From assembly GCA_027532905.1 (NCBI GenBank), contig JAPZUA010000001.1:789950-853949 (forward strand): a stretch of 64,000 nt of DNA. Reading direction: 5' to 3'. Below, piece after piece: positions 32,053 through 57,946 of this stretch. This DNA is from Magnetospirillum sp. (GTDB lineage: Bacteria; Pseudomonadota; Alphaproteobacteria; CACIAM-22H2). The notes under the pieces were generated by a model, which was not told the DNA's origin, made no database searches, and saw only the letters and a list, made by a program, of their open reading frames with translations. The first letter of the stretch is position 1. Every line of letters begins with the position of its first letter. A program made the translations under genes and the position numbers.

Positions 32053-32231
32053 CGCAATAAAGTCCGATTCCGACCGAATAAAACGCGGGGCCGAAGACTT
32101 ATCCCAAGTGCTGGCTTGTTGCGAAGGTTTCCGGATGTTAATTTTTCCGAAATGTCTGCCCGTGCAGACTTGCGGGCTTACGAGTCTCCTCCCTCTTTGG
32201 CCCCTCTCATCGACCGGCCGCCGAGCAAAAG

Positions 32232-33508: not shown

Positions 33509-33584
33509 GCGCGGTTCCTCTGGCTTGAAACGCCCGCATGAGTATAACCATGCCACGCCACGCAAGACATCGGGAGATCGTGCA

Positions 33585-34349: not shown

Positions 34350-34356
34350 GAGGGGC

Positions 34357-34842: not shown

Positions 34843-34884
34843 CTCACTCAGATGCCACAAAATGGTTAGACGTAGGTTAACGCG

Positions 34885-35409: not shown

Positions 35410-35428
35410 GGTCTTCGCTCCTCTCGGG

Positions 35429-36154: not shown

Positions 36155-37080
36155 GCGGCCACCCCCGCGCGCGCGGCAGCGACTTCGGCCGCATTCGGAA
36201 TTGGGGCGACGGCCCCGTAGCCTTGCGTCGATAGGGCTGCTGCAACGGCGGCATAGCGTGCCGCCTCGACTGGGTCGGCACCACGCGCAAGGCACGCCAC
36301 GAAAGCGCCGCCAAACGTGTCGCCAGCCCCTGTCGCGTCCACGGGCTTGCACGGGTGCGGGGCAATGCGCACGCGCTTTTCGGGCAAGGCCAGCAGCGTG
36401 CCTTCGGCACCGAGCTTGAGGGCGACGATGCCGGGCCCCTTGGCGAGCAGAAGGTCGGCAAGGCGGTCGGGGTCGCGCTCGTCGTAGATCGCGGCCACGT
36501 CGTCGTAGCTCGGCAGGCAGATGTCGCATTGGAAGACGGCCGCATCGATGGCGATGCGCGCTTGCGCAAGCGGCCACAATTTCAGACGCAGATTCGTATC
36601 GAACGAAACCTTGACGCCGGCGCTACGTGCCGCCGCGATCGCGGCAAAGCAGGCATCGTGGGCACTCTTTGAGATCGCCAGAGAAATGCCGGAGAGGTGG
36701 AGAATTTTGGCTTCGGCGATCGCCTCAAGTGGCAGATCTGCAGGCGCATAGCGGCTCGCGGCCGAGCCTTTGCGGAAAAACGAAAAATGATGGCCGCCTG
36801 CATCGTGCGTGACGAAATAGACGGCCGTGAACGCGTCCGCACGTTTGCGCACATGCGCGTCGTCCACGCCCTCTTCGCGCCACAGATCGCGCAGCATGCC
36901 GCCATAGATGTCGTCGCCCAGCGCCGAGACGTAGCCGACCGACGCTCCTTGGCGGGCGGCTGCGATCGCGAAGTTCGACGAGTCGCCGCCGAAACCTTGC
37001 AGATAGGTGCGGCTGCCGGGTCCGCCGGTCTGATTGAACTCGACCATCGGCTCGCCCATGGCAAGAATTTCGCGCGTCAT
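36151..37080 (-). CDS. 2-keto-3-deoxygluconate kinase-like PfkB sugar kinase
   Basis: The product is 309 aa. It begins MTREILAMGEPMVEFNQTGG, has LQGFGGDSSNFAIAAARQGA, YVSALGDDIYGGMLRDLWRE and the PfkB anion-hole motif PVDATGAGDTFGGAFVACLA. The N-terminal EPMVEFN segment and the overall length are typical of KdgK. It phosphorylates 2-keto-3-deoxygluconate in the Entner-Doudoroff/uronate pathway if the assignment holds. GGAGGGAG directly before the ATG is a very strong ribosome-binding site. It heads the kdgK-SDR-cupin unit and is divergent from ogt. Confidence 0.88.
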   Translation of the reverse strand: MTREILAMGEPMVEFNQTGGPGSRTYLQGFGGDSSNFAIAAARQGASVGYVSALGDDIYGGMLRDLWREEGVDDAHVRKRADAFTAVYFVTHDAGGHHFSFFRKGSAASRYAPADLPLEAIAEAKILHLSGISLAISKSAHDACFAAIAAARSAGVKVSFDTNLRLKLWPLAQARIAIDAAVFQCDICLPSYDDVAAIYDERDPDRLADLLLAKGPGIVALKLGAEGTLLALPEKRVRIAPHPCKPVDATGAGDTFGGAFVACLARGADPVEAARYAAVAAALSTQGYGAVAPIPNAAEVAAARAGVAA

Positions 37081-37220
37081 CTCCCTCCCCTTCGTCTTCT
37101 TTGGTGCGGCAGCTAGTGTCGCAAGGCCAAGCACCGAGCGCAAGATCGCGGCAAGAAGCGGGTGGGTCGGCGCGAACGCTCGCGCCATGTTCTTGCCACA
37201 ACCGCAGACGGAGAGGCACG

Positions 37221-37724
37221 ATGCCCCAAACGATACGCTACGCAACGGCGGCGGCCGACATCGGCTGCGTGCTGATTGCGGCAACCGACAAAGGCCTGTG
37301 CTGGATTGCCATTGGCGACAGCGACGACGAATTGCTGGCCGCCTTGTGCGCGCAATACCCGGCCGCCGAACTGCGCACCGCCGATGCGGAGTTCGCGCGC
37401 TGGTTCGGGTCCGCCCTTGCCGCACTCGAACAGCCGCATGTGGCGTGCAACGCACCGCTGGCGCTTGAAGGTTCGGCCTTCCAGCAACAGGTGTGGCAGG
37501 CCTTGCGCAACATTCCCGCGGGGCAAACCACAAGCTACAGCCGACTTGCCGCCAAGCTCGGCGAGCCACAGGCGACACGCGCGGTCGCCCGTGCTTGTGC
37601 CGCCAACCGTTTGGCGGTGCTCGTCCCCTGCCATCGCGTGGTGGCCGCCGACGGTTCGCTTGCAGGCTATCGCTGGGGGCTTGCCCGCAAAAAGACGTTG
37701 CTCGCCCGCGAGCGCGCGGCATGA
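37221..37724 (+). CDS. ogt: Methylated-DNA-[protein]-cysteine S-methyltransferase
   Basis: The product is 167 aa. The active-site motif LAVLVPCHRVVAADGS carries the acceptor cysteine, and SAFQQQVWQALRNIPAGQTT and SYSRLAAKLGEPQATRAVAR are typical. Ogt/Ada C-terminal proteins remove O6-alkyl groups from guanine by suicide transfer. It overlaps the following dioxygenase gene by 4 bases, a DNA-repair pairing. Confidence 0.95.
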   Translation: MPQTIRYATAAADIGCVLIAATDKGLCWIAIGDSDDELLAALCAQYPAAELRTADAEFARWFGSALAALEQPHVACNAPLALEGSAFQQQVWQALRNIPAGQTTSYSRLAAKLGEPQATRAVARACAANRLAVLVPCHRVVAADGSLAGYRWGLARKKTLLARERAA

Positions 37725-38416
37725 GGCTCGATACGCTCGACTGGGCGGCCCTTGGCGCCGAACTCGACGCCAAGGGCTTTGCCGCCACACGGCCGATTCT
37801 GTCGGCGGCCCAATGCAAGGCGGCCGCCGCAAGCTACGACGACGACGCCTTGTTCCGCTCCACCATCGTCATGGCGCGGCACGGGTTCGGGCGCGGCGAA
37901 TATCGCTATTTCGCCTATCCGCTGCCCGAACCCGTCGCTGGGCTGCGCGAGGCGCTCTATGCGCGACTCGCCCCCATCGCCAATGCGTGGCACGAAAAGC
38001 TCGGCAAGCCTGAGCGCCTCCCGGCAACGCATGCAGCGTTTCTGGCGACCTGTGCAGCTGCGGGCCAGACGCGGCCCACGCCCTTGCTGCTGCGCTATGG
38101 TACCGGCGACTATAATTGCATGCATCAGGACCTCTACGGGGTCGTGCATTTCCCGATCCAAGCGGCATTTTTGCTGTCGCGACCTGAGGCCGATTTTTCG
38201 GGCGGCGCGTTCGTGCTGGTCGAACAGCGCCCGCGCCAGCAGAGCCGCGCGCATGTGGTCCCACTTGCGCAAGGGGCATGCGTGCTGTTTGCGGTGAACG
38301 AACGCCCGGCGACCGGCACACGCGGCATTCATCGCGTGAAGTTGCGCCACGGTGTCGCCGAGATAAGCAGCGGCCAACGCCACACGCTGGGCGTGATCCT
38401 GCACGACGCGGCGTAA
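37721..38416 (+). CDS. 2OG-Fe(II) oxygenase (Oxygenase-NA / DUF2086-like), repair-associated
   Basis: The product is 231 aa. The Fe-binding HxD is in NCMHQDLYGVVHFPIQAAFL, and a distal histidine and arginine (GIHRVKLRHG) complete a 2-oxoglutarate dioxygenase core. The pattern FPIQAAFLLSRPEADFSGGA matches the Oxygenase-NA family annotated as oxidative demethylation of damaged DNA. Translational overlap with ogt supports a repair role. It is convergent with selO. Confidence 0.85.
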   Translation: MRLDTLDWAALGAELDAKGFAATRPILSAAQCKAAAASYDDDALFRSTIVMARHGFGRGEYRYFAYPLPEPVAGLREALYARLAPIANAWHEKLGKPERLPATHAAFLATCAAAGQTRPTPLLLRYGTGDYNCMHQDLYGVVHFPIQAAFLLSRPEADFSGGAFVLVEQRPRQQSRAHVVPLAQGACVLFAVNERPATGTRGIHRVKLRHGVAEISSGQRHTLGVILHDAA

Positions 38417-38420
38417 AGCG

Positions 38421-39860
38421 TTATGTGCCGCAGAAGGTCGCTTCGACGATCTCGTGCGGCAAAGGCGGGGCGGCATAGCGTGCGGCATGGACTTGCGGCG
38501 CATAGGGTGCCGTGACCACGCGCAGCAATGCATCGAGCGGTTCGAGATCGCCGTTGATCTCGGCCGCCGCCAGCGCTTCTCCGACGAGATGGTTGCGCGG
38601 GATGTAGAGCGGATTGCCCGCATCCATGCTGGCGCGCACATCGGCCAAGCCCCGGCCTTCGGCGGCGAGGCGTTTGCGCCATTCGCCGACCCACGCTTCA
38701 AGCCCTTCGGGAACCGGCCCGCCGCCAAGATGGGCTGCCAGATGCCGGAAGGTCAGCGTGAAATCGGCTTTATGGTTGGCCATCGCAGCCAACAGCCCGT
38801 CGATCAGCGACGCGTCGTCGGGCAGCGCCGTTGCGAGGCCGATCTTGGCGCGCATGCGCGCGAGATACGCGTCTTCGAACAGGCCCGCAAACGCGTCGAT
38901 CGCGGCTTGGGCGCTAGCAACTGCCGCGTCTTCGTCCTCGCCCAAGAGTGGGGCCAAAGCTTGCGCCAATCGCGCCATGTTCCAATGCGCGATGCGCGGC
39001 TGGTTGGCGTAGGCGTAGCGGCCCTGATGGTCGATCGAGCTGAACACGGTCGCGGGATGGTAGTCGTCCATGAAGGCGCACGGGCCGTAATCGATCGTCT
39101 CGCCGGCGATCGACATATTGTCGGTGTTCATCACGCCGTGGATGAAACCCACCGCCATCCAGCGCGCGATGAGGTCGGCAGTGCGCGCGACGACGCCGTC
39201 CAGAAACGCGCGATAGGGCTGGGCCGCGTTCGCCGCAGCCGGATCGTGGCGTTGGATTGCGTAGTCGGCGAGCGCTTTGACCGCCTCGCCGTCGCCGCGT
39301 GCCGCAAAAAACTCGAACGTACCTACGCGGATATGGCTCTTGGCGACGCGTGCCAGCACCGCCCCCGGCAGGATCTGTTCGCGAAACACGCGCTCGCCCG
39401 TCGCCACAGCCGCAAGCGTGCGCGTGGTGGGGATGCCCAAAGCCGCCATGGCTTCGCTCACCACATATTCGCGCAAGACCGGCCCCATTGCCGCACGTCC
39501 GTCGCCGCCGCGCGAATAGGGCGTGCGGCCCGAGCCTTTCAAATGCAGATCGTAGCGCTGCCCATCGGGCGCTTTGAATTCGCCGACCAGCAACGCGCGT
39601 CCGTCGCCGAGCTGCGGCGAGAAATGCCCGAACTGATGGCCCGCATAGACGAGAGCCATCGACGCGGCCCCCTCGGGCATCGCGGCCCCGGCAAGCATCG
39701 CGACCCCGGCAGGGCTTGCAAGCCACTCGGGATCGAGCCCGAGTTTCAGCGCTAACGGCATGTTGAGGCGCAAGAGCTTAGGGGCCGCCACACGCGCAGG
39801 GTCCATGCGCGTGTAGAAACGTTCGGGTAGACGGGCGTAGCTGTTGTCGAAAGCAAGCAT
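38421..39860 (-). CDS. selO: SelO-family protein adenylyltransferase (YdiU-like)
   Basis: The product is 479 aa. SelO hallmarks are FDNSYARLPERFYTRM, YAGHQFGHFSPQLGDGRALL, HLKGSGRTPYSRGGDGRAA, GVMNTDNMSIAGETIDYGPC and the pseudokinase DYGP/FMDDYHP region. SelO-type pseudokinases transfer AMP to proteins and act in redox stress. The protein ends EATFCGT; there is no selenocysteine codon evident. The ATG at 39860 is family-typical; 36 bases upstream in frame are not needed. Confidence 0.95.
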   Translation of the reverse strand: MLAFDNSYARLPERFYTRMDPARVAAPKLLRLNMPLALKLGLDPEWLASPAGVAMLAGAAMPEGAASMALVYAGHQFGHFSPQLGDGRALLVGEFKAPDGQRYDLHLKGSGRTPYSRGGDGRAAMGPVLREYVVSEAMAALGIPTTRTLAAVATGERVFREQILPGAVLARVAKSHIRVGTFEFFAARGDGEAVKALADYAIQRHDPAAANAAQPYRAFLDGVVARTADLIARWMAVGFIHGVMNTDNMSIAGETIDYGPCAFMDDYHPATVFSSIDHQGRYAYANQPRIAHWNMARLAQALAPLLGEDEDAAVASAQAAIDAFAGLFEDAYLARMRAKIGLATALPDDASLIDGLLAAMANHKADFTLTFRHLAAHLGGGPVPEGLEAWVGEWRKRLAAEGRGLADVRASMDAGNPLYIPRNHLVGEALAAAEINGDLEPLDALLRVVTAPYAPQVHAARYAAPPLPHEIVEATFCGT

Positions 39861-39975
39861 GGATCGAGTTTGCCCGAGCTGTCGGCAAAACGCCAAGGGG
39901 TCTCTCGCGGGCTAGCCCGCTTCAAAAGCCTTGGCCGTTCGGATAGTTTTGTCGATCTTCGCGAAAGGGAAAACG

Positions 39976-40839
39976 ATGCGGAACTACCCCGAAACGCGCG
40001 CACCGGCCGATGCAGACGCGCGCCGCGCCATCGCACCTGTGGTCTGCTATCCGGTCGAAACCTTGCCGCAGCCCGACATGGCGCTCTATCACGCGGCACG
40101 GGCCGCGCTCGAGACCGTCGAGACGCGGCGCATCGAACCAAGGCAAGGCGGTTGCTTCAAAGTGCCGGCCGGCCATTTCTTCCGCATCCGCAGCGTCGAG
40201 GGGCCGCAGGTCGGCGATCTCAATCTGTGGAGTGCAGCCGACCTCGCCGAGCGCTTCTATTCCGGCAAGACGCGCGCCTTGCACGCCACGCATCTCAGCA
40301 CCGGCGACCGGCTGTGGTCGTGCTTTCCCTATCTACGGCCCATGGCCACGATCACGCACGATACGCTCGACTGGTACGGTGTGGACGACTATGGCGGACG
40401 CATCCACGACGTGATCGGCACGCGCTGCGATCCCTACACGCACAATCTTCTGTCGGGCGGCGGCCAGTATCACCATTGCTGCCATTCCAATCTCAGTCGA
40501 GCGCTTGCGGCACTGCTGCAAAAGCCCGTGCGCGACGTCGAAAACCACGTGCACGACGTTTTCAATGTGTTCATGTGCACGGGCTTCGCGAGAGACACCG
40601 GTCAGTATTTCACCAAAGCAACGCCGGTACGGCCGGGCGACTTCATCGAGTTTTTCGCTGAGATCGATCTGATCGGCGCGCTCTCGGCATGCCCTGGCGG
40701 CGATTGTTCGACCGTGCAGGCCTGCGGCGAGGCCGCGTGCCATCCGCTCGATGTGGAAATTTTGCGCCCCGTGCCAGATGCTTTGCGGGGCTGGATACCG
40801 CCTGCGGCAAACGGCTACGCGCGCGATCATGCGTCTTAG
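39976..40839 (+). CDS. DUF1989 family protein (urea carboxylase-associated type)
   Basis: The product is 287 aa. The DUF1989 pattern is clear: GGCFKVPAGHFFRIRSVEGP, GDLNLWSAADLAERFYSGKT, RALHATHLSTGDRLWSCFPY and the cysteine/histidine cluster QYHHCCHSNLSRALA. Two more cysteine-rich stretches (VRDVENHVHDVFNVFMCTG, ACPGGDCSTVQACGE) follow. Proteins of this family are encoded with urea carboxylase or guanidine genes; none is adjacent here. The ATG at 39976 follows GAAAGGGAAAA. Confidence 0.85.
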   Translation: MRNYPETRAPADADARRAIAPVVCYPVETLPQPDMALYHAARAALETVETRRIEPRQGGCFKVPAGHFFRIRSVEGPQVGDLNLWSAADLAERFYSGKTRALHATHLSTGDRLWSCFPYLRPMATITHDTLDWYGVDDYGGRIHDVIGTRCDPYTHNLLSGGGQYHHCCHSNLSRALAALLQKPVRDVENHVHDVFNVFMCTGFARDTGQYFTKATPVRPGDFIEFFAEIDLIGALSACPGGDCSTVQACGEAACHPLDVEILRPVPDALRGWIPPAANGYARDHAS

Positions 40840-40936
40840 CCGTTTTGCGTCGCGAATCGCAAAGTGTCCTTGCGGGGGTGCCCGCTTCCCGGCAGAGTTT
40901 CGGCCCCATACCCCCCCCGAACGGAGGACCTTGGCC

Positions 40937-41860
40937 ATGACAACCGACATTCTCGACGTCGCCGCCGCGCAGGCAAAGCCCGCGGCGTTGACGCAAGCCG
41001 ACATCGACAGCCGCATTTTCGAACTCTACGACGAGTACTGCCATGGCGGCATCGACCGACGCACCTTCCTGCAGCGCGCTGCGGTCGTGACCGTTGGCGG
41101 GCTTGCAATGGCGCAGGCTTTGTTCCCGCGCTACGCCGATGCGCAGACGATCTCGTTCACCGATCCGCGCATCAAGGCAAGCTACGTGACCTATCCTTCG
41201 CCCGGCGGCTCGTCGGGCACGATGCGCGGCTATCTCGTGCAGCCGACCGGAGCCGGCCCTTTCCCGAGCGTGCTGGTGATCCACGAAAATCGTGGCCTCA
41301 ATCCCTATATCGAAGACGTGGCGCGCCGTGCGGCGGCCGACGGGTTCCTCGCCCTCGCCCCGGACGGGCTTTCGCCGGTCGGCGGCTATCCCGGCAACGA
41401 CGACGACGGCCGCACGCTGCAAGCGAGCCTCGATCCGGCCAAGCTGCGCACCGACATGCTGAACAGTGCGCGCTTCGTGAAGGCGCACGCGCTTTCCAAC
41501 CGCAAACTCGGCGTCACGGGCTTCTGCTGGGGCGGCGGGGCGACCAACTTCCTCGCGGCCACAATGGGCGCCGACATGCAGGCGGCCGTACCCTATTACG
41601 GGGCTGCCCCCGAAACGTCGTCGGTCGCGTCGATCAAGGCGGCGGTCCAGGTGCACAATGCCGAGAACGATCCGGGCATCAACAATCTGTGGCCGGGCTA
41701 CGAGGCAGCACTGAAGGCGGCCGGCGTTTCGTACGAGCACCATTCCTATCCGGGCACGATGCACGGCTTCCACAACAACTCCACACCGCGCTTCAACGAA
41801 GCGATGGCGAAGCTCGCCTGGGACCGCACCGTGGCGCATTTCAAGAAGCACCTCGCCTGA
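40937..41860 (+). CDS. Tat-exported dienelactone hydrolase family protein (YghX-like)
   Basis: The product is 307 aa. An N-terminal extension with a twin-arginine motif (DRRTFLQRAAVVTVGG, Arg41-Arg42) precedes an alpha/beta-hydrolase core with the nucleophile Cys197 in GVTGFCWGGGA, and the acid and histidine regions (ENDPGINNLWPG, TMHGFHNNSTPRF). It is probably exported folded. The N-terminal cytoplasmic stretch of 40 residues before the twin arginine is unusually long. A strong intrinsic terminator follows. Confidence 0.9.
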   Translation: MTTDILDVAAAQAKPAALTQADIDSRIFELYDEYCHGGIDRRTFLQRAAVVTVGGLAMAQALFPRYADAQTISFTDPRIKASYVTYPSPGGSSGTMRGYLVQPTGAGPFPSVLVIHENRGLNPYIEDVARRAAADGFLALAPDGLSPVGGYPGNDDDGRTLQASLDPAKLRTDMLNSARFVKAHALSNRKLGVTGFCWGGGATNFLAATMGADMQAAVPYYGAAPETSSVASIKAAVQVHNAENDPGINNLWPGYEAALKAAGVSYEHHSYPGTMHGFHNNSTPRFNEAMAKLAWDRTVAHFKKHLA

Positions 41861-41885
41861 CGAAACGCCGGAAGGCTTCGAGAGG

Positions 41886-41914
41886 GGGGGCGTCTGCGGG
41901 CGCCCCCTTTTTTT
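41886..41914 (+). terminator. Rho-independent terminator after the dienelactone hydrolase
   Basis: The arms GGGGGCG (41886-41892) and CGCCCCC (41901-41907) enclose an 8-base loop and are followed by seven T residues (41908-41914). It begins 26 bases after the stop codon. Confidence 0.9.
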
Positions 41915-43401
41915 CAGCCGGGGCTGAAAATCGGGAAACTCACGCCGACCGCCCAGGCGAGGACGAGACCGAGCGCAAGACCTGTCGCACCCGGCGACTG
42001 CGTGCGCCGCCCGACCCAGCCCGCCATCGTTCCGAACACGGCGAAGAACAGCACGATGACCGGAATAATGATGAGCAGGAAAAACAGGCGCTCGAAATCG
42101 AGCGCCACCGCGGCACCCAGCGACGCCAGAAACGCAAGCCGTGCCGCGACGACCCGCCACACGCGCGCGCGTCCGCCTTCGGTCGCAAGGCTGTCGGCAA
42201 GCATATAAGGGATCGCACCAACAGCGATCGCCGCAACGATCGGCAGGCGTTCGGCATTCGGCATGAACGAGGCTGCGTAGCGGTCGAGCGCGCCCCCGAA
42301 AACAAAAATGCCGTAGGCGGCAAAAGCAGTAGCCGCCGCCCACGCGACGTGCCCGATGCGCACGCCGTTCCACGCCAGGATCGCCAAAGACAGAAGCCCG
42401 TACACAAACAGATGCACGGCCAGATAATCGGCCACGAGCACAGGCAGGAAACGCGTGTCGAACAGCGTGAGCAGCGGCGGTGTGGCCACCGCCGGCGCGA
42501 AGATCGCGACGAGAAACACGCGCAACTTCACAGCTTCGGCATGCCGCTCACGTCGTGGCAGCAAACTTGCCAAGGGCCAGGCCAGCAACACGAGCCCCGC
42601 CATTAGCAGCAGGATCGGGAGGCCTGTGGCGGCGACGGGCCCAGCGCTCGTACGGCCGAAAACGGCATCGAGCCAGTCGCGCGACTCCTGCAACGCCGCC
42701 GCCGAATAAAGCACGCCGACATGCTCGACATTCGGCGCTGATGCCGCACGCCGACCGCTGCCAGAGGCCGGATCGCCGGTCGTTGTCCCTTCCGCCGCCG
42801 TCGGATCGGCGAGCTTGGCATTGGCAAGCGCATTGGCGCGCAGAAAGCCTTCGAATTCGCCCGAGACCATTAGGAGATTGCGCGGTTCGCTCGGCGTGAC
42901 GGCTTCAGAGAACATCGAGATCGCGACCGTGGCGCGCACACGCGGATCTTCGAGCGCCAGGCGCACGATGATGTCCGACGCCATCGAATGGCCGAGCAGG
43001 GCCACGCGCCCATCGACGAAGGGCAAAGCAAGGGCAGCATCGACCACGCGGCCGGTTTCGCGCATCAGCAATTGCGTGGTGCCGTCGATGCGCGACACGT
43101 CGCCCGACATCGGCACGGGATTGCGGCCGTGCCCTTCGAAATCGAATGACACCGCGACATAGCCGGCCTTTGCAAGCGTCAGCGCGTAGGCCTCCATCAA
43201 TTGCCGCGAGCCCGCAAAGCCGTGCGCGATGACGACAACAGGCGCCGGGGCCGCATCGGCCTGCCGATAGACCGTCGCGGGCGTGGTGCCGACGGCAAGC
43301 GGCGTTATCGCCAGGCCCAAACGCGCGGCTTCGAGGTGCCAGACGCCCGTGCCGCACAGCACGAGCCCCACGATCGCCGCCGCCAAGTGCCGCAAGCGCA
43401 T
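41914..43401 (-). CDS. Alpha/beta-hydrolase fused to a polytopic membrane domain
   Basis: The product is 495 aa. After an N-terminal membrane helix, residues about 35-215 form an alpha/beta-hydrolase core: VVVIAHGFAGSRQLMEAYAL with the HGF oxyanion region, and the nucleophile elbow VALLGHSMASDIIVRLALED (GHSMA). The C-terminal half has about seven membrane helices (from around residue 255). It is probably an inner-membrane esterase or lipase-like protein. ATG at 43401 follows the bchG stop by 5 bases; an in-frame TTG at 43410 would overlap that stop by 4. It lies directly downstream of bchG. Confidence 0.82.
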   Translation of the reverse strand: MRLRHLAAAIVGLVLCGTGVWHLEAARLGLAITPLAVGTTPATVYRQADAAPAPVVVIAHGFAGSRQLMEAYALTLAKAGYVAVSFDFEGHGRNPVPMSGDVSRIDGTTQLLMRETGRVVDAALALPFVDGRVALLGHSMASDIIVRLALEDPRVRATVAISMFSEAVTPSEPRNLLMVSGEFEGFLRANALANAKLADPTAAEGTTTGDPASGSGRRAASAPNVEHVGVLYSAAALQESRDWLDAVFGRTSAGPVAATGLPILLLMAGLVLLAWPLASLLPRRERHAEAVKLRVFLVAIFAPAVATPPLLTLFDTRFLPVLVADYLAVHLFVYGLLSLAILAWNGVRIGHVAWAAATAFAAYGIFVFGGALDRYAASFMPNAERLPIVAAIAVGAIPYMLADSLATEGGRARVWRVVAARLAFLASLGAAVALDFERLFFLLIIIPVIVLFFAVFGTMAGWVGRRTQSPGATGLALGLVLAWAVGVSFPIFSPG

Positions 43402-43406
43402 GGCTT

Positions 43407-44294
43407 TCAAACCGCGACTGCGCTCGCCATCATGCCAAGCACGTAGAGCGGCACGCCGAAGCCGCTATACCAATAGGCTTGGCCGACCGGATCACGCAGC
43501 AGCCGCTGCATCATCAATATCTGCCCGCCGAGCAGCGCGATCACGATCGAGGCCTCGATCGGCCGCCCCCAGCTCAACAGCATCAAGATTACGACGATCT
43601 GCGGCAGCGCCATGATGGCGCACGCTGCCATGGCGGCACGCGTCGGTCCCAGCATTACAGGCAGCGAGTTGATGCCCATCTCTCGGTCGCCCTTGATGGC
43701 TTTGAAGTCGTTGAGCGTCATGATGCCGTGCGCACCGGCTCCGTAGAGCAGTGCCAGCGCCAGGATCTCGGGTTTCGGCAAGGCGCCGCCGAGCATCGCG
43801 GCCGCCCCTGTGATCCAGGCAAGGCTTTCGTAGGAAAAGCCGCATGCGGCATTGCCGAGCCAGCCATTGCGCTTCAAGCGCAGCGGCGGGGCACTATAGG
43901 CCCACGCGAAGAAGAGACCTGCCACCGTCGCGATGACCACCCAGGTGCCGAGGGTTGCCGCCACAAGCAGCGACAGCACCGACCAGATACCCGCGATATA
44001 GAGCCCCCATTTGCCCGGAATGCGGCCTGACGGGATCGGCCGGTGCGGCTCATTGATCGCGTCGACGTCACGGTCGTACCAATCGTTGATGGCCTGGCTC
44101 ATGGCGCAGACGAGCGGCCCTGCGAGCACGATGCCGGCGAGGGCGATGTACCAATTCGCCAGAATCGGCGCGCCCGACGACACGACGCCGCACGTGAACG
44201 CCCACATCGGCGGAAACCACGTGATCGGCTTCAGCAGCTCGAGCACGGCCGAAGGAGCCGGATAGGTCGGGCGCTGGGCGGTGGCGTTCGGCAT
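43407..44294 (-). CDS. bchG: Bacteriochlorophyll synthase BchG (UbiA-type prenyltransferase)
   Basis: The product is 295 aa and polytopic. The signature SQAINDWYDRDVDAINEPHR, PIPSGRIPGKWGLYIAG and YSAPPLRLKRNGWLGNAACG are the conserved BchG motifs, including the Asp-rich isoprenoid-diphosphate loop DWYDRDVD and the second loop TLNDFKAIKGDREMGINSLP. BchG esterifies bacteriochlorophyllide a with geranylgeranyl or phytyl diphosphate in the membrane. No other bch, crt, puf or puc gene is visible; the usual bchP neighbour is missing. The region just upstream begins the AT-rich segment with IS ends. No clean PpsR-type TGT-N12-ACA site was found upstream. Confidence 0.93.
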   Translation of the reverse strand: MPNATAQRPTYPAPSAVLELLKPITWFPPMWAFTCGVVSSGAPILANWYIALAGIVLAGPLVCAMSQAINDWYDRDVDAINEPHRPIPSGRIPGKWGLYIAGIWSVLSLLVAATLGTWVVIATVAGLFFAWAYSAPPLRLKRNGWLGNAACGFSYESLAWITGAAAMLGGALPKPEILALALLYGAGAHGIMTLNDFKAIKGDREMGINSLPVMLGPTRAAMAACAIMALPQIVVILMLLSWGRPIEASIVIALLGGQILMMQRLLRDPVGQAYWYSGFGVPLYVLGMMASAVAV

Positions 44295-44783
44295 GTCGGC
44301 GCTTGGCCGCTGTCACGAGCCAGAGAAATTGAGATTCATCACAAGGCAACCCTTTGTTCTTACTGTACGGCGAAAACAGAAATCCACCTATGCCTTTCAA
44401 GATAAGTGAGATTCGAAGTCGTTTGCATCAAAGAAATCGAGGCTCGATATCTGGACGCCCGAAGTTCAATGGCTTATCGCCTTTGGCCTGAGCCCATGAA
44501 CTTAACCTTTTGTGTGTAGAGTCTGTTGCGTATTGCTCTGATACTAAACATTGGACCGCTGACTGCTAGAGTCTTCGACATCATGCTCCAAGACTGATTA
44601 TCATGCACTCAACCGAGTAAGCTCACATGCTCAGGCTACGTTGGATAAACAATTCTGCTCAGCGGCATAGCTCGTGGGAAACCGACAAGCGCGGACCGGC
44701 TTGGTCCTCTTTAGTCGCCGCGACCTTGGGCACAAGAAGTCTCGCGATTAATCAAAGATTGGAAAACTTTCTGGCAAGTCAGC
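44295..44783. other. AT-rich intergenic region upstream of bchG, with an IS-end relic
   Basis: About 489 bases with no ORF of coding character. Composition changes sharply here from GC-rich genes to a mixed, AT-richer sequence. It contains an orphan insertion-sequence end at 44484-44527. It must also carry the bchG promoter and that of the unknown gene at 44784. Confidence 0.6.
44484..44527 (+). repeat. Orphan IS3-type end
   Basis: These 44 bases align without gaps to the end of the IS relic at 46918-46961 (by eye about 36 of 44 positions, including TGGCCTGAGCCC and TAGAGTCTGTT). The orientation is the same. No transposase sequence follows, so this is a solitary end or a deletion product of another copy. 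Confidence 0.7.
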
Positions 44784-45581
44784 ATGAAAACTAGGAACGA
44801 CAAATTTTTGTGCCGCGCGACTCTTGCAGTTAGCACAAGCGACGAAACCCTTGCGAGGAAACACTTCGTTTCGGCAAGCGATGCCGCAGACTGGGCTCTC
44901 TTGACGGCCCAGCACATGAAACTCTCACTGGGGCCCTCGGCCTACGACAAAATCGACGACGAACTCACAATCGAGATCGGCGGTCACTTTGCAGACGACC
45001 CCACATTGGAGCGACTGACTGTTTTTGTCGGTTCTTTGGCGACCGCGAGTGCCCAACTTGCAAAGAGCGTTGCCGAATTTGAGCAGGACAAACTGCCAAA
45101 ATTTCGTATTGAAGTCGTAAAGCGAGCCGCATCGCGCGCCAAACGAAGATATTGGGTGGCCGCAATGGGGGCAGGTACGCTGGCAGTTGCCGTGATCGGT
45201 GTATTGCTGGTGCCGCCCATTCTGGATCCCGAGCGCGTTGCGGAAGCAATCTTGTCTGGTCCGCCCCCTGCGTTTGCCGGACGCTGGGCAATCGGCGACC
45301 CAGCAGCGAATTGTCAGACCAACTTCATCGATCTGAGCCGCAGGCGATACGAAGCAGTGGTCGGAAGCAGTCGGCAGAGTTTCGTTGCGGCGTACTCCCA
45401 GACGAGTTCCGATGTATTGCGGGTTGAATACGCCCAAGGCGGAATAAAGCTTGCGCAGTTGTTTCGACTGTCACCTCAAACCGGACTTTTGACGATCGTC
45501 AATGTCGAGTCTAGCGAGCCTGAGATCGCAACGGCGGCGCGACGTGTAATTGGTACAGTTCTGACCAAATGCCCCGCTTGA
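44784..45581 (+). CDS. Unknown single-span membrane protein in the IS-bounded region
   Basis: I do not recognise this 265-aa product. The N-terminal half is soluble and helical, a basic stretch (KRAASRAKRRYW, about residues 112-124) leads to one membrane helix (about 125-148, VAAMGAGTLAVAVIGVLLVP), and the C-terminal 115 residues form a presumed periplasmic domain with two cysteines (CQTNFIDLSRR and TKCPA). Topology is inferred from the positive-inside rule. Codon use is less GC-biased than in the host genes, fitting transfer. Confidence 0.65.
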   Translation: MKTRNDKFLCRATLAVSTSDETLARKHFVSASDAADWALLTAQHMKLSLGPSAYDKIDDELTIEIGGHFADDPTLERLTVFVGSLATASAQLAKSVAEFEQDKLPKFRIEVVKRAASRAKRRYWVAAMGAGTLAVAVIGVLLVPPILDPERVAEAILSGPPPAFAGRWAIGDPAANCQTNFIDLSRRRYEAVVGSSRQSFVAAYSQTSSDVLRVEYAQGGIKLAQLFRLSPQTGLLTIVNVESSEPEIATAARRVIGTVLTKCPA

Positions 45582-45790
45582 ATCGATCACAAACGCTCAG
45601 TTAACCAAGGTTAAGATTCGATAAAGAGAGTCTTTAGGATAGTCTGAGTAAGTTGCGCACAAGATTGTATGCAATGCATCATCAACGTGAATGAAGTATG
45701 GATGAGATCGATAAAGTAGGCCTCCTGCCGAAGGGCGACTCGTACGCGAGATCCACCAGAGATCTGAAAAGAACCCAAAACGGCACGCGC

Positions 45791-46852
45791 ATGACAAACA
45801 TCGCAATCGGTATCATTGGAGCGGGGTTGATTGGCCGCAAGCATCTGGCGGAGATCGCGACGCATCCAGATTTCGACCTTGTCGGGATCGCGGACATCAA
45901 TGCCGAACAGGTCGCTGCCGAAAATCCTGCAGCACGTGTCTTCGCCGATTTCCGGCAGATGCTGGACGAAGCCCGGCCCAACGCCGTAGTCATCGCATCG
46001 CCGAACCAGATGCATGCGGAGAACGGCGTGGAATGCGCCCGCCGCGGCATCCATATCCTGATCGAGAAACCGGTCACGGATACGCTCGAGTCAGCCGCCA
46101 AATTGGTCGCCGCGGTCCGCAAAACGGGTATCCGGACACTTGTCGGACACCATCGTCGTCACCATCAGCAGGTCGCGGCGCTGCGTTCGCTGATCGCCGA
46201 GGGTCGAATCGGAAACATTGTTGGCGTCTCCGCCATTTGGGCAACCTATAAGCCCGATTCTTATTTCAAGGCTGCTCCTTGGCGGACGCAAGCCGGCGGC
46301 GGACCAGTTCTGATCAATCTCATCCACGAGATCGATTTCCTTCGTTTCGCTGTTGGCGAAATCTCCGCCGTCAGCGCAACGCTCTCGAACCGCCAGCGCG
46401 GCTTCGCAGTCGAAGATACGGCCGCCATCCTGATCGAATTCGAGAATGGAGCGGTCGGGACCTTTCTCCTCAGCGACAGCGCCGTCTCGCCATGGACGAT
46501 GGAGCAAGGGCTCGGCGAGTCACCGGCGTTCCCGTCGAGCGGCGAGAGCAGCTATCGTCTCGTTGGCAGTCGCGGCGCGCTCGAATTTCCGAATCTGGTC
46601 GAGTGGACGCAGGCTGGGGGCGAACCGAACTGGAATCGACCAACCCATGCGCAGCGCATCAATGTCCCAACGATCAACCCCTACGCGGCACAGCTCGATC
46701 ATTTCCGCGATGTGATCCGCGGCGTGGTGCCGTCTATTCTATCTGTCGAAGATGGTGCTCGCACACTGGTCGCGACGCTCGCCGTCAACGAAGCGTCGCT
46801 GGCAGGCAAGCGGATCGACTTGCGCGATCGCTATGCGGACTTTGTGCGGTGA
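45791..46852 (+). CDS. Gfo/Idh/MocA family oxidoreductase
   Basis: The product is 353 aa. A Rossmann motif IGIIGAGLIGRKHLAEIA, the family lysine in HILIEKPVTDTLESA and HHRRHHQQVAALRSLIAEGR, then a C-terminal sheet domain, identify an NAD(P)-dependent dehydrogenase of the myo-inositol/glucose-fructose type. Substrate is unknown. The frame is open from 45698, but the extra 31 residues have no family match and the ATG at 45791 is used. It ends 65 bases before the IS relic. The gene may be the surviving member of a catabolic cluster. Confidence 0.9.
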   Translation: MTNIAIGIIGAGLIGRKHLAEIATHPDFDLVGIADINAEQVAAENPAARVFADFRQMLDEARPNAVVIASPNQMHAENGVECARRGIHILIEKPVTDTLESAAKLVAAVRKTGIRTLVGHHRRHHQQVAALRSLIAEGRIGNIVGVSAIWATYKPDSYFKAAPWRTQAGGGPVLINLIHEIDFLRFAVGEISAVSATLSNRQRGFAVEDTAAILIEFENGAVGTFLLSDSAVSPWTMEQGLGESPAFPSSGESSYRLVGSRGALEFPNLVEWTQAGGEPNWNRPTHAQRINVPTINPYAAQLDHFRDVIRGVVPSILSVEDGARTLVATLAVNEASLAGKRIDLRDRYADFVR

Positions 46853-46917
46853 CCACCAAATGATCTTGACCTCTTATTCCAGTCGAAAACTTTAGTACGA
46901 TTTGGCTACAACCGCCC

Positions 46918-46961
46918 TGGCCTGAGCCCGTGAACCCACCCATTTGAAGGTAGAGTCTGTT
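46918..46961 (+). repeat. IS end (plus-strand left end)
   Basis: This is the left end of the relic, matched by the right end in inverted orientation and by the orphan end at 44484-44527. All three share TGGCCTGAGCCC at the tip and TAGAGTC near the inner side. Confidence 0.75.
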
Positions 46962-46999
46962 CCTTGGTTTGACCCTGTCTGGGTGGCTGTGGCAACGGG

Positions 47000-47615
47000 G
47001 CGAGGCGCGAAGCCCGGTGGACAGCGCAGCGTCTCGCTCCGCTGCATGGCGAAGACGCTTGCCGCTGCGAAGGCTGCCGGCGTTTGGGTGCCGATCGAAC
47101 TGTGCGGACGTGTCGTGTTGTAGTCGATCCGCCAGGCTTCGATCTTCTCGATAGCATCGACGAGCGAGCCGAACAGTCACTCGTTCAAGCACTCATCGCG
47201 TCGCTTTCTGTTGACGCTTTTGATCGCCGCGTTCTCCGTCGGCCTGCCGGGCGCCATGTAATGCCATTCGATGCCAGTCTCCATCGTGTGCTGCACCGCC
47301 CGTGGCCGTGCCGCAGGCCTCAGAAGTTTCCCGACGCGCGTGAACGTATACGTTCACGCCTTCAAAGCGGCGTTGTCCAGCATCACCTTGGCCATCAGAT
47401 TTTACAACTTCCGGTTCTCCGCCTCTAGAACCTTCAGCCCTCGGGCCTCAGACACCGTCATCGCCCCGTACTTGACTCTCCAGTGGTAGAGGGTCGCCTC
47501 GCTGCTTCCGTGCTGGCGGCACAGCTCCCCGACTTTCCCGCCGGACGCATGCAGCTTCACGATCTCGATGATCTACTCTTCCGTGAACGGCTCTTCTTCA
47601 TAGTCCGCTCCTCTT
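47000..47615 (-). pseudogene. IS3-type transposase remnants (OrfA and OrfB)
   Basis: Reading 47615 down to 47000, OrfA starts near EEPFTEE and is interrupted by TAG where CAG (Gln) is expected, then by TAA where AAA (Lys) is expected after EAENRKL. OrfB resumes after a deletion (WHYMAPGRPTENAAIKSVNR) and is cut by TGA after RRDECLNE. The in-frame stops and lost middle mean it cannot make an active transposase. The boundaries given are approximate. Confidence 0.85.
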
Positions 47616-47622
47616 ATTGGGC

Positions 47623-47666
47623 GGACTCTACACTTCTCAGTGGGCGGGTTTTACGGGCTCAGGCCA
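47623..47666 (-). repeat. IS end (right end)
   Basis: Read on the minus strand it begins TGGCCTGAGCCCGTAAAACC and contains GTGTAGAGTCCGCCC, the inverted partner of the left end. It includes the usual subterminal positions of IS3-group ends. Confidence 0.75.
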
Positions 47667-47842
47667 CAATTCCTCTAGAAGGAAGCTAGGGCTTGAGGCA
47701 ACCACCCCGCTCTCTCGTCCAGAAACTTGCAATCCTATTACAAGATCACACACATCAATCAACAGCGACGTTAGAATCGTTAGGTTAACGCCTGCGCCGT
47801 GGTCGACGTCTATCGGCCCATGCTTTGTCATGATGCACCTCC

Positions 47843-49336
47843 TTAGGCGACCATTGCTGCCGACGCTTCGCGGACCTCTTTCGTCGATCGGTCGGCCGAA
47901 CTCGCCGCTTCGGCGATCTCGCGAACGCTATTTGTGATTTCTTCCACAGCCTGTGCTGCCGTTTGCATGTTCTGCGACATGTCACGCGTCACGGCACTCT
48001 GCTCTTCGACCGCGCCTGCAGTTGAACTCACATACTCGCGGACAGCTTCAATCGACTGTTTGATATTGCCGAGGCCGGTCACTACGTCACGGGTTACAGC
48101 CTGAATGCCGTCGATCTCGGCAGCGATTTTTTCTGTCGCGTCAGCCGCCTGGCGCGCAAGGCTTTTGACTTCTGTCGCGACCACAGCGAATCCGCGACCT
48201 GCTTCACCTGCGCGAGCTGATTCGATCGTCGCGTTGAGCGCCAGAAGGTTGATCTGACCCGCAATGTTCTGAATCAGCGAAACTATGCCACCCATCGCAG
48301 TTGCAGCAGCGGACAGACGCTGTGTACTCGAGTCGGCCTCACCCACGCGTTGGAACGCCTTGTCTGCTTCAACCCGCGACTTCGACATACTTTGCGCAAT
48401 CTCGGCCACCGAAGCGTTGAGTTGTTCGGCACCGGCCGCGACGGCTTGAACATTTGCGGTCGTTTGACTCGATGCAGCCGAGGCAGCCGTTGCACGAGTG
48501 CTTGCCTGAGATACCGCTTGATCGATCGACGAGAGGCTTTCGTCAATCATATGGCGAGCTTGCTCGTTCTTCTTGCGCGCCAAAACAGCCGCCGTCACAT
48601 CAATTGCGAATTTGACGACTTTAAACGGGCGACCCGACATGTCGAGAATTGGATTATAGGATGCTTGAATCCAGACCTCCCGACCACCTTTCCCGAGACG
48701 CTTGAATTCAGCAGCCTGGAACTCTCCGCGTCGCAGCGAATCCCAGAATGCTCGGTACTCGCTGCTGGAGCGCGATTCCGGTTCAACGAACATACTGTGG
48801 TGCTTGCCGCGAATTTCGTCGGGCGCGTAGCCCATTGCGCTGCAAAAGTTCTGGTTCGCATCGAGAATCTTGCCGTCGAGATCAAATTCGATCACCGCCG
48901 AGGACTTCCCGATCGCGGCTAGTTGGCCTTGATAATCAGCGTTTCGTAGCTTGTCCGCTGTAACGTCAGTCGCAAATTTCACGACCTTGTAGGGTTTGCC
49001 GCTCGCATCAATGATTGGATTGTAGCTCGCGCGAATCCAAACCTCCTTTCCGTTCTTTCCGATTCGCCTGTACTCAGCCGATTGGTACTCACCTCGATTA
49101 AGCCGAGCCCAGAACTCATTGTAAGCCGGAGAGGCGGCTTCTGCCGCATCGACAAACATTCGATGATGTTTTCCGCGCACCTCTTCGAGTGTGTATCCAA
49201 GTGTATCGAGAAAATTTTTGTTGGCCGTGCGAATTGTGCCATCGAGACCGAACTCGATTACAGCCTGAGACTTATGGAGCGCGGTGAGTTGGTCCTGCAT
49301 CTCCGACTTTGCGGAATGGAGGTTCAATCCAAACAT
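47843..49336 (-). CDS. Soluble PAS-PAS methyl-accepting chemotaxis protein
   Basis: The product is 497 aa without membrane segments. Two similar PAS-PAC units occupy about residues 20-130 and 142-252 (each with the pattern KHHxMFV and [20 protein letters not shown] / [20 protein letters not shown]). A chemoreceptor signalling domain follows (about 285-495) with the hairpin [20 protein letters not shown] and [20 protein letters not shown]. It would sit in the cytoplasm and feed CheA/CheW arrays encoded elsewhere. No C-terminal pentapeptide for CheR is visible. It begins the AT-richer sensory run. Confidence 0.93.
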
Positions 49337-49402
49337 TGGCGTCTCCCATTTTGTTTTGATCGCAGTTGCCGACTTAGAATCACCAATCTTCTTTTACATA
49401 TG

Positions 49403-49430
49403 GTTAACGTAAACTACTTTACGCTTTAAC
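49403..49430. promoter_or_regulatory. Imperfect inverted repeat upstream of the PAS-PAS chemoreceptor
   Basis: GTTAACGTAAA and TTTACGCTTTAAC are inverted around CTAC, with a two-base insertion in one arm, 66 bases before the chemoreceptor start. It may be an operator; the regulator is unknown. Confidence 0.4.
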
Positions 49431-49441
49431 ACAGTATATCT

Positions 49442-49454
49442 TAGATAGTATCTA
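49442..49454. promoter_or_regulatory. Small palindrome TAGATA-G-TATCTA
   Basis: A perfect 6-bp inverted repeat around a single G, 12 bases beyond the previous one. It may be part of the same control region. The role is not known. Confidence 0.3.
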
Positions 49455-49760
49455 TATATTTTTTTGTCAGAGGTGAATTTCCGAAATGCTTGCATGAGCT
49501 TCTATTGAGAAGTTCGATAAATGAACGATTAGTGCGCAATAAGTTTCGCGATCGATGATCGTAGCTATCAGGCAATGACGATACGCCAGAATCGATATTT
49601 CGATCGGCACCTGGTTTATTGCGATAGCGCGAGCCTGAACGTGGTCAAACTGTCTGCAACAGCACACGTCATTGAAATCGAATGCATAGGATCGATGCAA
49701 TGATTGAAGATGACGTTCAATTGCACAGACGCGCAAAAGTCACGATTGGATCGCTTTTAA

Positions 49761-50270
49761 CTAGCTTGGACCTTGTCTCTGACAGAAACCGCGATAGTCG
49801 ACTCCGCCAACCGCATAGGCAATTCGACCGGTTGAGTCGGCCAACGGCATCAGCACCTGCTCAACTTCACGATAACTATCTGTGTACCGAAACGGCGTTG
49901 TACCAAAAAAGTATTGTGGCTTACCACTCAGCTGCAGTTTTGGAAGCAGCCGATATGTCGCTGATTGGGTTATTCGTGGAATTTCGTCGTCGTCTAGGCG
50001 GCAGCCTTTGAAGTCCTGGCCATAGGCATCGACAAGGTAAGTTCCTAGAAGCCGAACTCGATAGTTCCTGAGTCCTTCAAGAATATCGATCATGAATATT
50101 CGTGGCCAAACCAAGCCGGGAATATCGATTGGATTGAAACTTAGTTTCTCGGGAATGCCGGCGCGGGAGTTAAGACTCTCCCAGTAACCGAACAACGTCT
50201 CAAGAAGTTGGCATTTTATTTCAGGCCGAGGGTACCGAGCTGGGCTCGACACTTTTTGACTTAGATGCAT
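49761..50270 (-). CDS. PAS_5-like (PF07310-type) protein
   Basis: The product is 169 aa. The PAS_5 pattern is visible: LFGYWESLNSRAGIPEKLSF, PIDIPGLVWPRIFMIDILEG, RNYRVRLLGTYLVDAYGQDF, KGCRLDDDEIPRI. It is divergent from another protein of the same type at 50351. The function is unknown; the family is common in alphaproteobacteria and may sense a small ligand. Confidence 0.82.
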   Translation of the reverse strand: MHLSQKVSSPARYPRPEIKCQLLETLFGYWESLNSRAGIPEKLSFNPIDIPGLVWPRIFMIDILEGLRNYRVRLLGTYLVDAYGQDFKGCRLDDDEIPRITQSATYRLLPKLQLSGKPQYFFGTTPFRYTDSYREVEQVLMPLADSTGRIAYAVGGVDYRGFCQRQGPS

Positions 50271-50350
50271 GTTTCTTGATTACGGTGATTCGACTCACGC
50301 TGCCTTGATCTACATCAGAGCAGCAGAATAAATCGCGGAGGTAGCTTAGG

Positions 50351-50998
50351 ATGCTGCAGTTGCGAACACAGACAAACATTTATTGTGTAAGTGTTTACGA
50401 ATTTGAAACGAAGATTAGGCAGTCTTTGTATGTGGAACATTTTCGCGCCAAGCTTCTATCACCATCGGTAAGAGTCGGTAAACCTGACTTCATTGACGGC
50501 GCTGCGCTGCTTTCCGCGTGCAGTCCGCGCTTTGCCCAGTTCTACGGGCTTTGGGACAGTAAACGCGCGGGCCGCGTTATGCCGTCGCGAAGTGACTTTG
50601 AAATCAGCGACCTTAAGCCGTGGCTGGGGTGGATTGCGCTACTCGGTGTTTTGCCTGGCGCGCTACCGGAAGGACACGATTTCGTCTATCGGCTCGTTGG
50701 AACAAACTTTACGCGCTACTACGAAGCGGACCCGACACAGCAACGGGTATCCGAGGCATCTGTACTTGTTGAGCGCGACCTCACACTCCAAAACCTTCGG
50801 GTTATCTGCGATACCAGAACGCCGAGATATCGGTCCGACTCGATTATGTGCGCCAGATTTGAGGCATACAGACAGCCACGCTTGTACGTGCCGCTCGGCG
50901 AGGACGGTAGCTCGGTTGATGTCATTATGCTTCTCGGTTGCGACCCCCATGATTCGATGGGGCGACCTGTTTTTGCGAATCGTTCTTTCGAAAGATGA
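50351..50998 (+). CDS. PAS_5-like (PF07310-type) protein
   Basis: The product is 215 aa. After a non-conserved N-terminus, residues about 55-205 follow the PAS_5 pattern (FAQFYGLWDSKRAGRVMPSR, FEISDLKPWLGWIALLGVLP, DFVYRLVGTNFTRYYEADPT). GGAGG lies about 10 bases before the ATG at 50351. It is the divergent partner of 49761-50270, so the pair likely shares a promoter region. Confidence 0.8.
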   Translation: MLQLRTQTNIYCVSVYEFETKIRQSLYVEHFRAKLLSPSVRVGKPDFIDGAALLSACSPRFAQFYGLWDSKRAGRVMPSRSDFEISDLKPWLGWIALLGVLPGALPEGHDFVYRLVGTNFTRYYEADPTQQRVSEASVLVERDLTLQNLRVICDTRTPRYRSDSIMCARFEAYRQPRLYVPLGEDGSSVDVIMLLGCDPHDSMGRPVFANRSFER

Positions 50999-51398
50999 AG
51001 CCGCTTCCAACTTTGATCGATGATCCAGCATTCACCAATACGCGATACGCCATCTACGCCGTTTCAGACTTGCCATCCCTTTTGACGTCTACGCCTTCTC
51101 CGACCTTTCTGCGATTTCCATCGCAAAGCTGTTTGTGCATCGGATGAAAAGCCGAGCATTGCGGTACCGTATCAATCAGTCCGATTTGGTATTTGTCAGC
51201 CGAAACATCTTGGTTGGTTGATGAATGTCGAGAGTGACGACGCTTTTTGACCTCAATCAATTCATTTTCAGGGAGCGCGCATTAACTTCATCGAGCAATC
51301 GGCGAAAGTGTTGGTGGTCATACATTAGTAGTCTCTTAAGGTAACGTGTTCTAAGATTCCAATGCGTCATACCCCCTAAGAAAGAAGAGGCATCAACT
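50999..51398. other. Intergenic region before the membrane chemoreceptor
   Basis: About 400 bases with mixed composition. Short ORFs on the minus strand (51054-51260, 51257-51466) have no coding character. It should contain the promoter of the chemoreceptor at 51399. Nothing else is recognised. Confidence 0.5.
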
Positions 51399-53096
51399 AT
51401 GCCCCACATCTTCCGGAGACTAATCGACGCCAAAATTGGCACAAAGATTTCAGCGGCAGTCGGCATCTTGCTTCTAGCAATTGCACTGATAAGTAGCTTA
51501 GCCGTTCGCGGAATTGACCGCGTTTACTATGCTTCCGAAGACGTCGCGAAAAACTGGCTTCCGGGCATTCAAGAGGCCGGATATTTACGTTTTGCCATTT
51601 CGCGCCATCGTACGCTCGCTGCACGGCACATACTTGTGAGCGAGCCGGCGCAGAAAACACAAACCGAGGCGGACATCAACGCAATACTGGAGCAAATCGC
51701 CAAGCACCGAATCGCGTATGAACCATTGATATCATCAGCTCAAGAAAAAGCGCTGTATGACGCTTTTGTCGGACAATGGGGCACTTATCTTGCGTCCATT
51801 CCGTCAGTTCTTGATGAGTCGCGGGCCAACAATCAGCAATCTGCAGCAACGATATGGGGGAACGTTACCGTACCCTTTACCTCAGCGGACAAAGCGCTAA
51901 GTGACATTATCGATCTAAATGAGGCAGGGGCTGTTGCGTCAAATAGAAGCGCCTATGCAATAGAACAGGCCGTGCTCTTGCAGGTCATCCTCATGGTCTG
52001 CTTTGCCATAGTGTTCGCGATCGCGGCGGCTGTATTTTTGGTCACTTCAGTCAGTAAGCCAATTGTAGCTATGACGGCTGCTATGAAGGGACTCTCTGAA
52101 AAGAACTTGGCGGTCGATATTCCAGCCGTCGGTCGCGGGGATGAGGTCGGCGCCATGGCTACCGCCGTCCAGGTGTTTAGAGACAACATGATGCGCGCCG
52201 ACCGGCTTGAAGCCGAAGCCGCAAAAGACCGGGCGGTACGGGAGACCCGTGCTGCCGCAATCCTGAAGCTCACACAAAAATTTGACACAAGCGCAGGGAA
52301 CGTCGTGAGCAAGCTGTCCAGCTCTGCTGAAGCGCTCCAGAAGAGTGCAGCCGAAATGACCCAAACAGCCGAAAGCGCCAGCCAACAAGCGACTGCAGTG
52401 GCGGCGGCGTCCGAGGAGGCATCAACGAATGTGCAAACGGTCGCATCGTCGGCCGAGGAGCTATCGGCTTCGATTCAGGAGATCTCTCGTCGGGTCAGCG
52501 AATCAGCCACCATTACCAAAACGGCGGTTGAACAAGCGGACAGAACGAGCGAGACCGTACAGGGGCTGGTCACTGTTGCCGCAAAAATTGGCGACGTCAC
52601 CAAGCTCATCAATGATATTGCCGGCCAGACAAACCTGCTTGCACTCAACGCCACGATTGAAGCGGCGCGTGCAGGCGACGCGGGCAAAGGATTCGCAGTC
52701 GTTGCGTCGGAAGTAAAAGGCCTTGCAACCCAAACAGCAAGAGCAACGGAGGAAATCTCTGGTCAGGTTACGGCGATTCAAAAGGCGTCTGCGGAAACCG
52801 TCGTTGCAATTCAGGGGATCTCCGAAACCATTCGCTCGATTAGCGAGATAGCTGCCGCAATCGCGTCGGCCGTCGAAGAACAAGGCGCTGCGACGCAAGA
52901 AATCGCCCGAAATGTTCAGCAAGCTGCAGCGGGAACTTCGGAAGTTTCGTCGAATATCGCAGGGGTCACAAAAGCCGCATCGGACACTGGGCACGTGGCA
53001 ACGCGGGTCAGTGGGGGAGCAGCTCAGATTACCGACCAAGCCGGGTTTCTGAAGCGTGAGGTCGAAAGCTTTCTTGACGGTGTGCGTGCAGCTTGA
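51399..53096 (+). CDS. Membrane methyl-accepting chemotaxis protein (4HB-type sensor, HAMP, signalling domain)
   Basis: The product is 565 aa. Membrane helices at about 17-37 ([20 protein letters not shown]) and 190-212 flank a four-helix-bundle periplasmic domain. A HAMP domain (about 213-265, [20 protein letters not shown]) is followed by a signalling domain with [20 protein letters not shown] and [20 protein letters not shown]. It detects an unknown ligand. It ends 2 bases before the histidine kinase start, so the two are probably co-transcribed. There is no CheR-tether pentapeptide. Confidence 0.94.
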
Positions 53097-53098
53097 AA

Positions 53099-55231: not shown

Positions 55232-55280
55232 AAATCATGCCGTCTTATGCTCGACAGAGTGCACCAATGCGAGACCTCCA

Positions 55281-57068: not shown

Positions 57069-57238
57069 CGATTTTTTGTATCGACGGGATCTATGTCGTC
57101 TCTAACAGGCCTCGCGCAAGTTTACGAATCAACGTTCAGCCAACTTCTTAACGCCCGCAAAATCTCATTTTCGACACCGGTGTCGGAGGCGGGCGAGACA
57201 GAGGGGATTTACAATTTAGACAGCGACGGAGTTACCTA

Positions 57239-57856: not shown

Positions 57857-57946
57857 GTTGAGGCCTCCGTTTGGGTCTTGGTTATTTCGGAGGTTGGACC
57901 GGGTTCATTGCAACACCATCTCCAACGTGTAACGGAATGTTGCGGC

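Follow-up and report, generated by a model that had tools for sequence, protein, structure and literature searches.

Transfer of bchG as a single gene has been described in Rhodobacteraceae, where the bchG of Sulfitobacter guttiformis conflicts with the tree of the photosynthesis gene cluster (PGC) (PMC6052148). In Vulcanimicrobium alpinum, the photosynthesis genes are scattered and no PGC is present (PMC12654162). Chlorophyll recycling is known from cyanobacteria, in which ChlG re-esterifies chlorophyllide (PMC9066304). No description of an out-of-cluster bchG that replaces the cluster copy and is accompanied by a phototrophy-linked membrane hydrolase was found in the open-access papers searched, which also yielded no enzyme to which bacteriochlorophyll de-esterification or recycling has been assigned in purple bacteria. 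Plants possess dephytylating alpha/beta hydrolases, namely chlorophyllase, pheophytinase and CLD1. BchO is an alpha/beta hydrolase of the PGC.

The stretch of DNA analysed here (64 kb, hereafter the window) carries a single bchG gene that is followed by a hydrolase gene, here termed abh. Very probably, the PGC of this organism has lost its own bchG, whose role is now filled by a bchG that was acquired horizontally and is located in a two-gene unit, bchG-abh, on another contig. By its sequence, the gene in the window is a genuine and intact bchG and the sole one of the genome. The 295-aa product scores above the curated cut-offs of two BchG models (NF005742: 410.9 bits, cut-off 313; TIGR01476: 347.9 bits, cut-off 212.3), and all other UbiA models are beaten by a wide margin. 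Both Asp-rich motifs of UbiA prenyltransferases can be read in the sequence and are intact (NDWYDRDVDAINEP and LNDFKAIKGDREMG), in agreement with the initial annotation, which had called the BchG motifs complete. It had also named a placement in a non-BchG UbiA group as evidence to the contrary; profile scores and a tree of 57 sequences, in which the protein branches among proteobacterial BchG, both identify it as BchG. The genome (4.26 Mb, 13 contigs) contains one BchG copy and three other UbiA proteins, all of them below the BchG search threshold. The gene is under purifying selection, with a dN/dS of 0.07-0.11 compared to relatives. This value and the position as sole BchG beside an intact PGC indirectly support an enzyme that would esterify bacteriochlorophyllide a, presumably with geranylgeranyl diphosphate like its counterparts in other purple bacteria. 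No BchG was found among phage records.

The organism with the lone bchG is an anoxygenic phototroph with a full PGC elsewhere. Contig C5 of the window's genome (G000) harbors a complete, uninterrupted PGC of 45 kb (about 49-94 kb), including the genes for PufL and PufM. It comprises dxs, hemA, puhE, acsF, puhC, puhB, puhA, lhaA, bchM, bchL, bchH, bchB, bchN, bchF, ppsR, ppaA, bch2, bchP, tspO, pufC, pufM, pufL, pufA, pufB, bchZ, bchY, bchX, bchC, crtF, crtE, crtD, crtC, crtB, crtI, bchO, bchD and bchI (37 genes matched, no stop in any match). The only core-set gene absent from this otherwise complete cluster is bchG. Its canonical position, between ppsR/ppaA and bch2-bchP, is not the one held by the window's bchG and is empty on C5; no bchG remnant was found in the ppsR-ppaA stretch, although relatives carry bchG there. 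Within the window, BchG is the only one of 44 Roseobacter litoralis PGC proteins with a match. The initial annotation had thus rightly noted that the window holds no other photosynthesis gene; puf, bchXYZ and bchP, which it had proposed to look for in the rest of the genome, are all part of the C5 cluster.

Among 61 relatives, bchG and pufLM are found in exactly the same 10 genomes. Two members of the same genus (G009 and G010) have kept bchG inside the PGC in the order ppsR-bchG-ppaA, and an in-cluster bchG is also present in a relative from outside the genus (G021). The window's genome and three others (G002, G003 and G004) have a PGC without bchG and encode bchG elsewhere in the genome. In G002 and G003, the gene is found at the same site as in the window, with about 14 kb collinear at 87% identity, so that the site is common to three species. 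The shared flank comprises abh, a dienelactone hydrolase gene, and urea-related, SelO and PhyH-like genes (the last three named from translations only). In both relatives, bchG starts 16-17 bp behind the stop codon of gyrB (recognised by sequence; matched at 98-99%).

In the window's genome, the end of gyrB is located 22.4 kb away from bchG, and everything in between is absent from G002. In the comparison with G002, an island begins at 44317, which confirms the island boundary noted by the initial annotation, and the AT-rich DNA with insertion sequence ends is real as well: upstream of bchG, the GC content drops from 65% to 55% and then to 47-52%, and an IS3-type remnant is accompanied by a solo end (Table 1). 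No transposase domain was detected in the remnant by Pfam, and no integrase was recognised in the 22.4-kb island. Its cargo includes a CzcA-type RND efflux pump of the metal-efflux type, an HlyD adaptor, a DUF305 protein, and two-component and chemoreceptor genes. The tetranucleotide TCAC occurs at both junctions. As G002 and G003 carry the pair at the same site but lack the island, neither the island nor its insertion sequences caused the isolation of bchG. The island is a later insertion, seen only in this genome, that neither brought bchG nor isolated it. A PpsR-type site (TGTN12ACA) was not found between positions 29913 and 53916, whereas the PGC has six such sites (weak consensus); the control of the displaced bchG is therefore probably uncoupled from the PpsR of the cluster.

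Table 1 Features of the bchG locus (positions refer to the window)
Feature	Position	Strand	Basis or remark
Block collinear with G002 (86.7% nt)	30248..44316		End is 22 bp upstream of bchG
Dienelactone-hydrolase/YghX-like gene, at the start of the ancestral flank that lies downstream of bchG-abh	40751..41860	+	Profile matches; collinear in G002 and G003
abh, predicted membrane-anchored alpha/beta hydrolase with C-terminal multi-helix domain	41914..43410	-	Pfam Hydrolase_4/Abhydrolase_1; conserved bchG neighbor
bchG, bacteriochlorophyll a synthase (displaced, Hyphomicrobiales-type lineage)	43407..44294	-	NCBIfam NF005742/TIGR01476; sole BchG of the genome; dN/dS
Genome-specific insertion, 22.4 kb	44317..64000 in the window, on to ~66733 from window start		Between gyrB and bchG; absent from G002
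Solo copy of the end of the IS3-type element	44484..44527		82% over 44 nt
IS3-type element, decayed, internally deleted	46918..47666	-	20-bp inverted ends; frameshifts and stops; family assigned by eye

In the BchG tree, on which constrained clades were evaluated by the AU test, the displaced proteins belong to a supported lineage apart from the in-cluster BchG of G009, G010 and G021. The wider displaced lineage is mainly composed of Hyphomicrobiales (Methylobacterium, Bosea, Phreatobacter, Beijerinckiaceae and Roseiarcus). The window's sequence and those of G002 and G003 cluster with two Hyphomicrobiales metagenome-assembled genomes (MAGs; L013 and L014) and a Roseiarcus-type pair (L015 and L016), and that of G004 clusters with Bosea, Phreatobacter and a Rhizobiales MAG. 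A single clade was rejected for the seven BchG of the family (AU p = 0.00016) as well as for the four displaced ones (p = 0.010). The control trees, in contrast, keep the four species together: BchH with a support of 100, joined by G009/G010 at 96, and PufM in a position apart from Phreatobacter (PufM alone does not resolve the genus as one clade). The conflicting BchG lineage of species that are united by BchH and PufM makes a xenologous displacement, as opposed to a relocated native copy, well supported. A single clade of the four species was likewise rejected for abh (p = 4e-47). Since the position of G004 conflicts in the BchG tree as well as in that of abh, bchG was probably acquired twice independently within the genus.

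The order to which the window belongs consists of one family with 23 genomes in the database. In the rpoB tree, the genus forms its own clade and L013 and L014 are placed beside Bosea; rpoB was not found in the window's own genome and G002 and G003 serve as proxies. Despite this distance, the BchG of L013 and of the window are about 90% identical, and the synonymous divergence of bchG between them (dS 0.60) is similar to the value found inside the genus (0.49). Cross-order horizontal transfer is the simplest reading of the displaced bchG. As L013-L016 are metagenome bins, this cross-order argument, but not the same-family test, would suffer if one of their contigs were misbinned.

Further bchG arrangements were observed in other genomes. 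The MAG Umea3 bin-2771 (L182-L184 on G070:C20, and L022) carries both an in-cluster bchG and a displaced-type bchG with abh, plausibly representing an intermediate state. In a MAG from Lac Pavin (L181, G062:C191, 9277-9600), the 3' half of a second, broken bchG, 71% to that of the window and with two stops, lies away from other bch genes. In Phreatobacter (L017), Bosea (L018) and a relative (L020), displaced-type bchG follows bchH (bchH-bchG), and abh comes next in Phreatobacter and Bosea; Bosea also has ppsR-bch2-bchP without bchG. In Methylobacterium and Beijerinckiaceae (L021 7007-8269, L023, L071 and L022), displaced-type bchG adjoins an FrhB/FdhB-type gene (BciB-like, a possible 8-vinyl reductase). 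Mini-clusters of late pathway genes thus exist outside the PGC.

The abh gene is located directly behind bchG and encodes a protein of 498 aa. It starts with TTG at 43410 (4-bp overlap with bchG) or, more likely, with ATG at 43401 (5 bp after the bchG stop). The predicted structure (pLDDT 76) consists of an N-terminal helix resembling a membrane anchor, an alpha/beta hydrolase domain of the esterase type, and a C-terminal multi-helix domain that is probably a membrane domain. In a structure comparison of the predicted model, residues 32-253 match esterases, lipases and thioesterases with a Z-score of about 23. Ser141, Glu186 and His229 are invariant in 15 homologues and likely constitute the catalytic triad. 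The protein thereby combines the alpha/beta hydrolase fold with the conserved Ser-acid-His residues of the de-esterase type. A profile search of the PDB returned generic esterases and lipases only.

Both gene orders are found, bchG-abh in L013-L018, G002, G003 and G004, and abh-bchG in L021 and L022. In 80 BchG loci, abh is within reach of bchG in 8 of the 13 that belong to the displaced lineage versus 2 of the 67 others (p = 1.8e-6). Across 387 alphaproteobacterial genomes, among them the window's genome and G002, abh is strongly linked to phototrophy: 9 of the 26 genomes that encode PufLM have it, compared with 3 of the 361 others (Fisher p = 1.2e-9). The latter three are G246, G268 and G160 (L197, L199 and L205), in which abh is present and PufLM was not detected; G246 shares its genus code with the phototroph G164 and may have lost phototrophy recently. 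Tentatively, the hydrolase may be coupled to BchG in function, and the most likely role would then be that of a pigment-turnover esterase. Considering that BchG is its partner, a pigment ester would be the simplest guess for its substrate, by analogy with ChlG recycling. It is rather doubtful, but conceivable, that bchG-abh constitutes a mobile two-gene pigment module, in which BchG would esterify bacteriochlorophyllide and the membrane-anchored esterase would remove the tail of bacteriochlorophyll that was released or had been esterified wrongly, in a bacterial cycle of pigment salvage or proofreading. The module would have repeatedly displaced the bchG of the cluster, and the last step would thereby have escaped control by PpsR.

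Several other explanations for the position of bchG have to be considered. The initial annotation had suggested that a rearrangement separated bchG from a photosynthesis cluster. A native gene that the island or its insertion sequences had removed from the PGC of this genome would account for the gap in the PGC and for the insertion sequence remnants and island directly upstream of bchG. This is hardly credible, given that kinship with the in-cluster bchG of the family was rejected at p = 0.00016 and that the same isolated bchG was found by synteny comparison in G002 and G003 without island or insertion sequences, a pattern that the annotation itself had listed as contradictory. Its second suggestion, a gene acquired alone, holds for the acquisition; the gene came, however, with its hydrolase neighbor. 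In Alphaproteobacteria, the PGC is known to be transferred as one block (PMC6052148), so that the displaced bchG could also be ancestral in the genus, with the newcomer being the PGC or the bchG that it contains in G009 and G010. BchH, however, unites all six species, G004 and the other three species carry distinct bchG-abh pairs, and the in-cluster form is also present in the outside relative G021, all of which renders this scenario very unlikely.

The direction of transfer is not fixed by the clade of G000, G002 and G003 with L013 and L014, and the dS values are similar. The pair could thus have passed from the window's genus to these Hyphomicrobiales MAGs, with the displacement in the genus being older or derived from another donor. 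This is unlikely, as the wider lineage belongs to Hyphomicrobiales and is represented in the genus by two separate branches. As for the gene pair itself, it is possible, though not the favored view, that the adjacency of bchG and abh reflects chance or mere co-transfer and that the hydrolase is unrelated to pigment. In many phototrophs abh is far from bchG, and its presence in three genomes without PufLM would fit as well. On the other hand, the occurrence of both gene orders, at least three adjacency changes on the abh tree, the enrichment in phototrophs and the location of abh near bchP in Methylocystis argue for a link.

The acquisition of a foreign bchG, in line with its phylogeny and with an island that is later than the site, can be outlined as follows. 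Transfer would have preceded the loss of the PGC copy. The native bchG would then have been lost, leaving a clean gap, and the incoming bchG-abh would fill its role, with the displaced BchG complementing the PGC in trans. At 16-17 bp behind gyrB, the pair may be readable from that housekeeping operon in G002 and G003; in the window's genome, gyrB and bchG were later split apart by the island. Even in a superoperon of 45 kb that is tightly conserved, an essential step thus appears replaceable from outside. Given the clean gap and the outside replacement, a PGC without bchG is no sign of lost phototrophy. The abh proteins are an uncharacterised, phototrophy-linked family of membrane hydrolases and candidate partners of BchG; their role is a hypothesis that is directly testable.

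Like abh, BchO is an alpha/beta hydrolase tied to bacteriochlorophyll genes. The two differ in that they show no cross-match in tblastn, and the window's genome has both. If abh and BchG are coupled, the pairing of a synthase with a de-esterifying alpha/beta hydrolase would resemble cyanobacterial ChlG recycling together with the plant hydrolases. In contrast to these, abh has an extra membrane domain, and the likeness shown is that of the alpha/beta hydrolase fold. As in Vulcanimicrobium alpinum, photosynthesis genes need not cluster, but here the cluster is intact and one gene lies outside. Single-gene transfer of bchG is already known; for the replacement by an out-of-cluster bchG, well supported as a displacement, and for the pairing with a hydrolase, no earlier description was found in the open-access papers searched. 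The case shares with the bchG transfer in Rhodobacteraceae (PMC6052148) that the bchG phylogeny conflicts with that of the remaining PGC and that one gene was replaced by the copy of a relative. There, bchG is counted among the numbered PGC genes, whereas here the incoming gene is located outside the PGC, together with a hydrolase partner, and the native place of bchG is empty.
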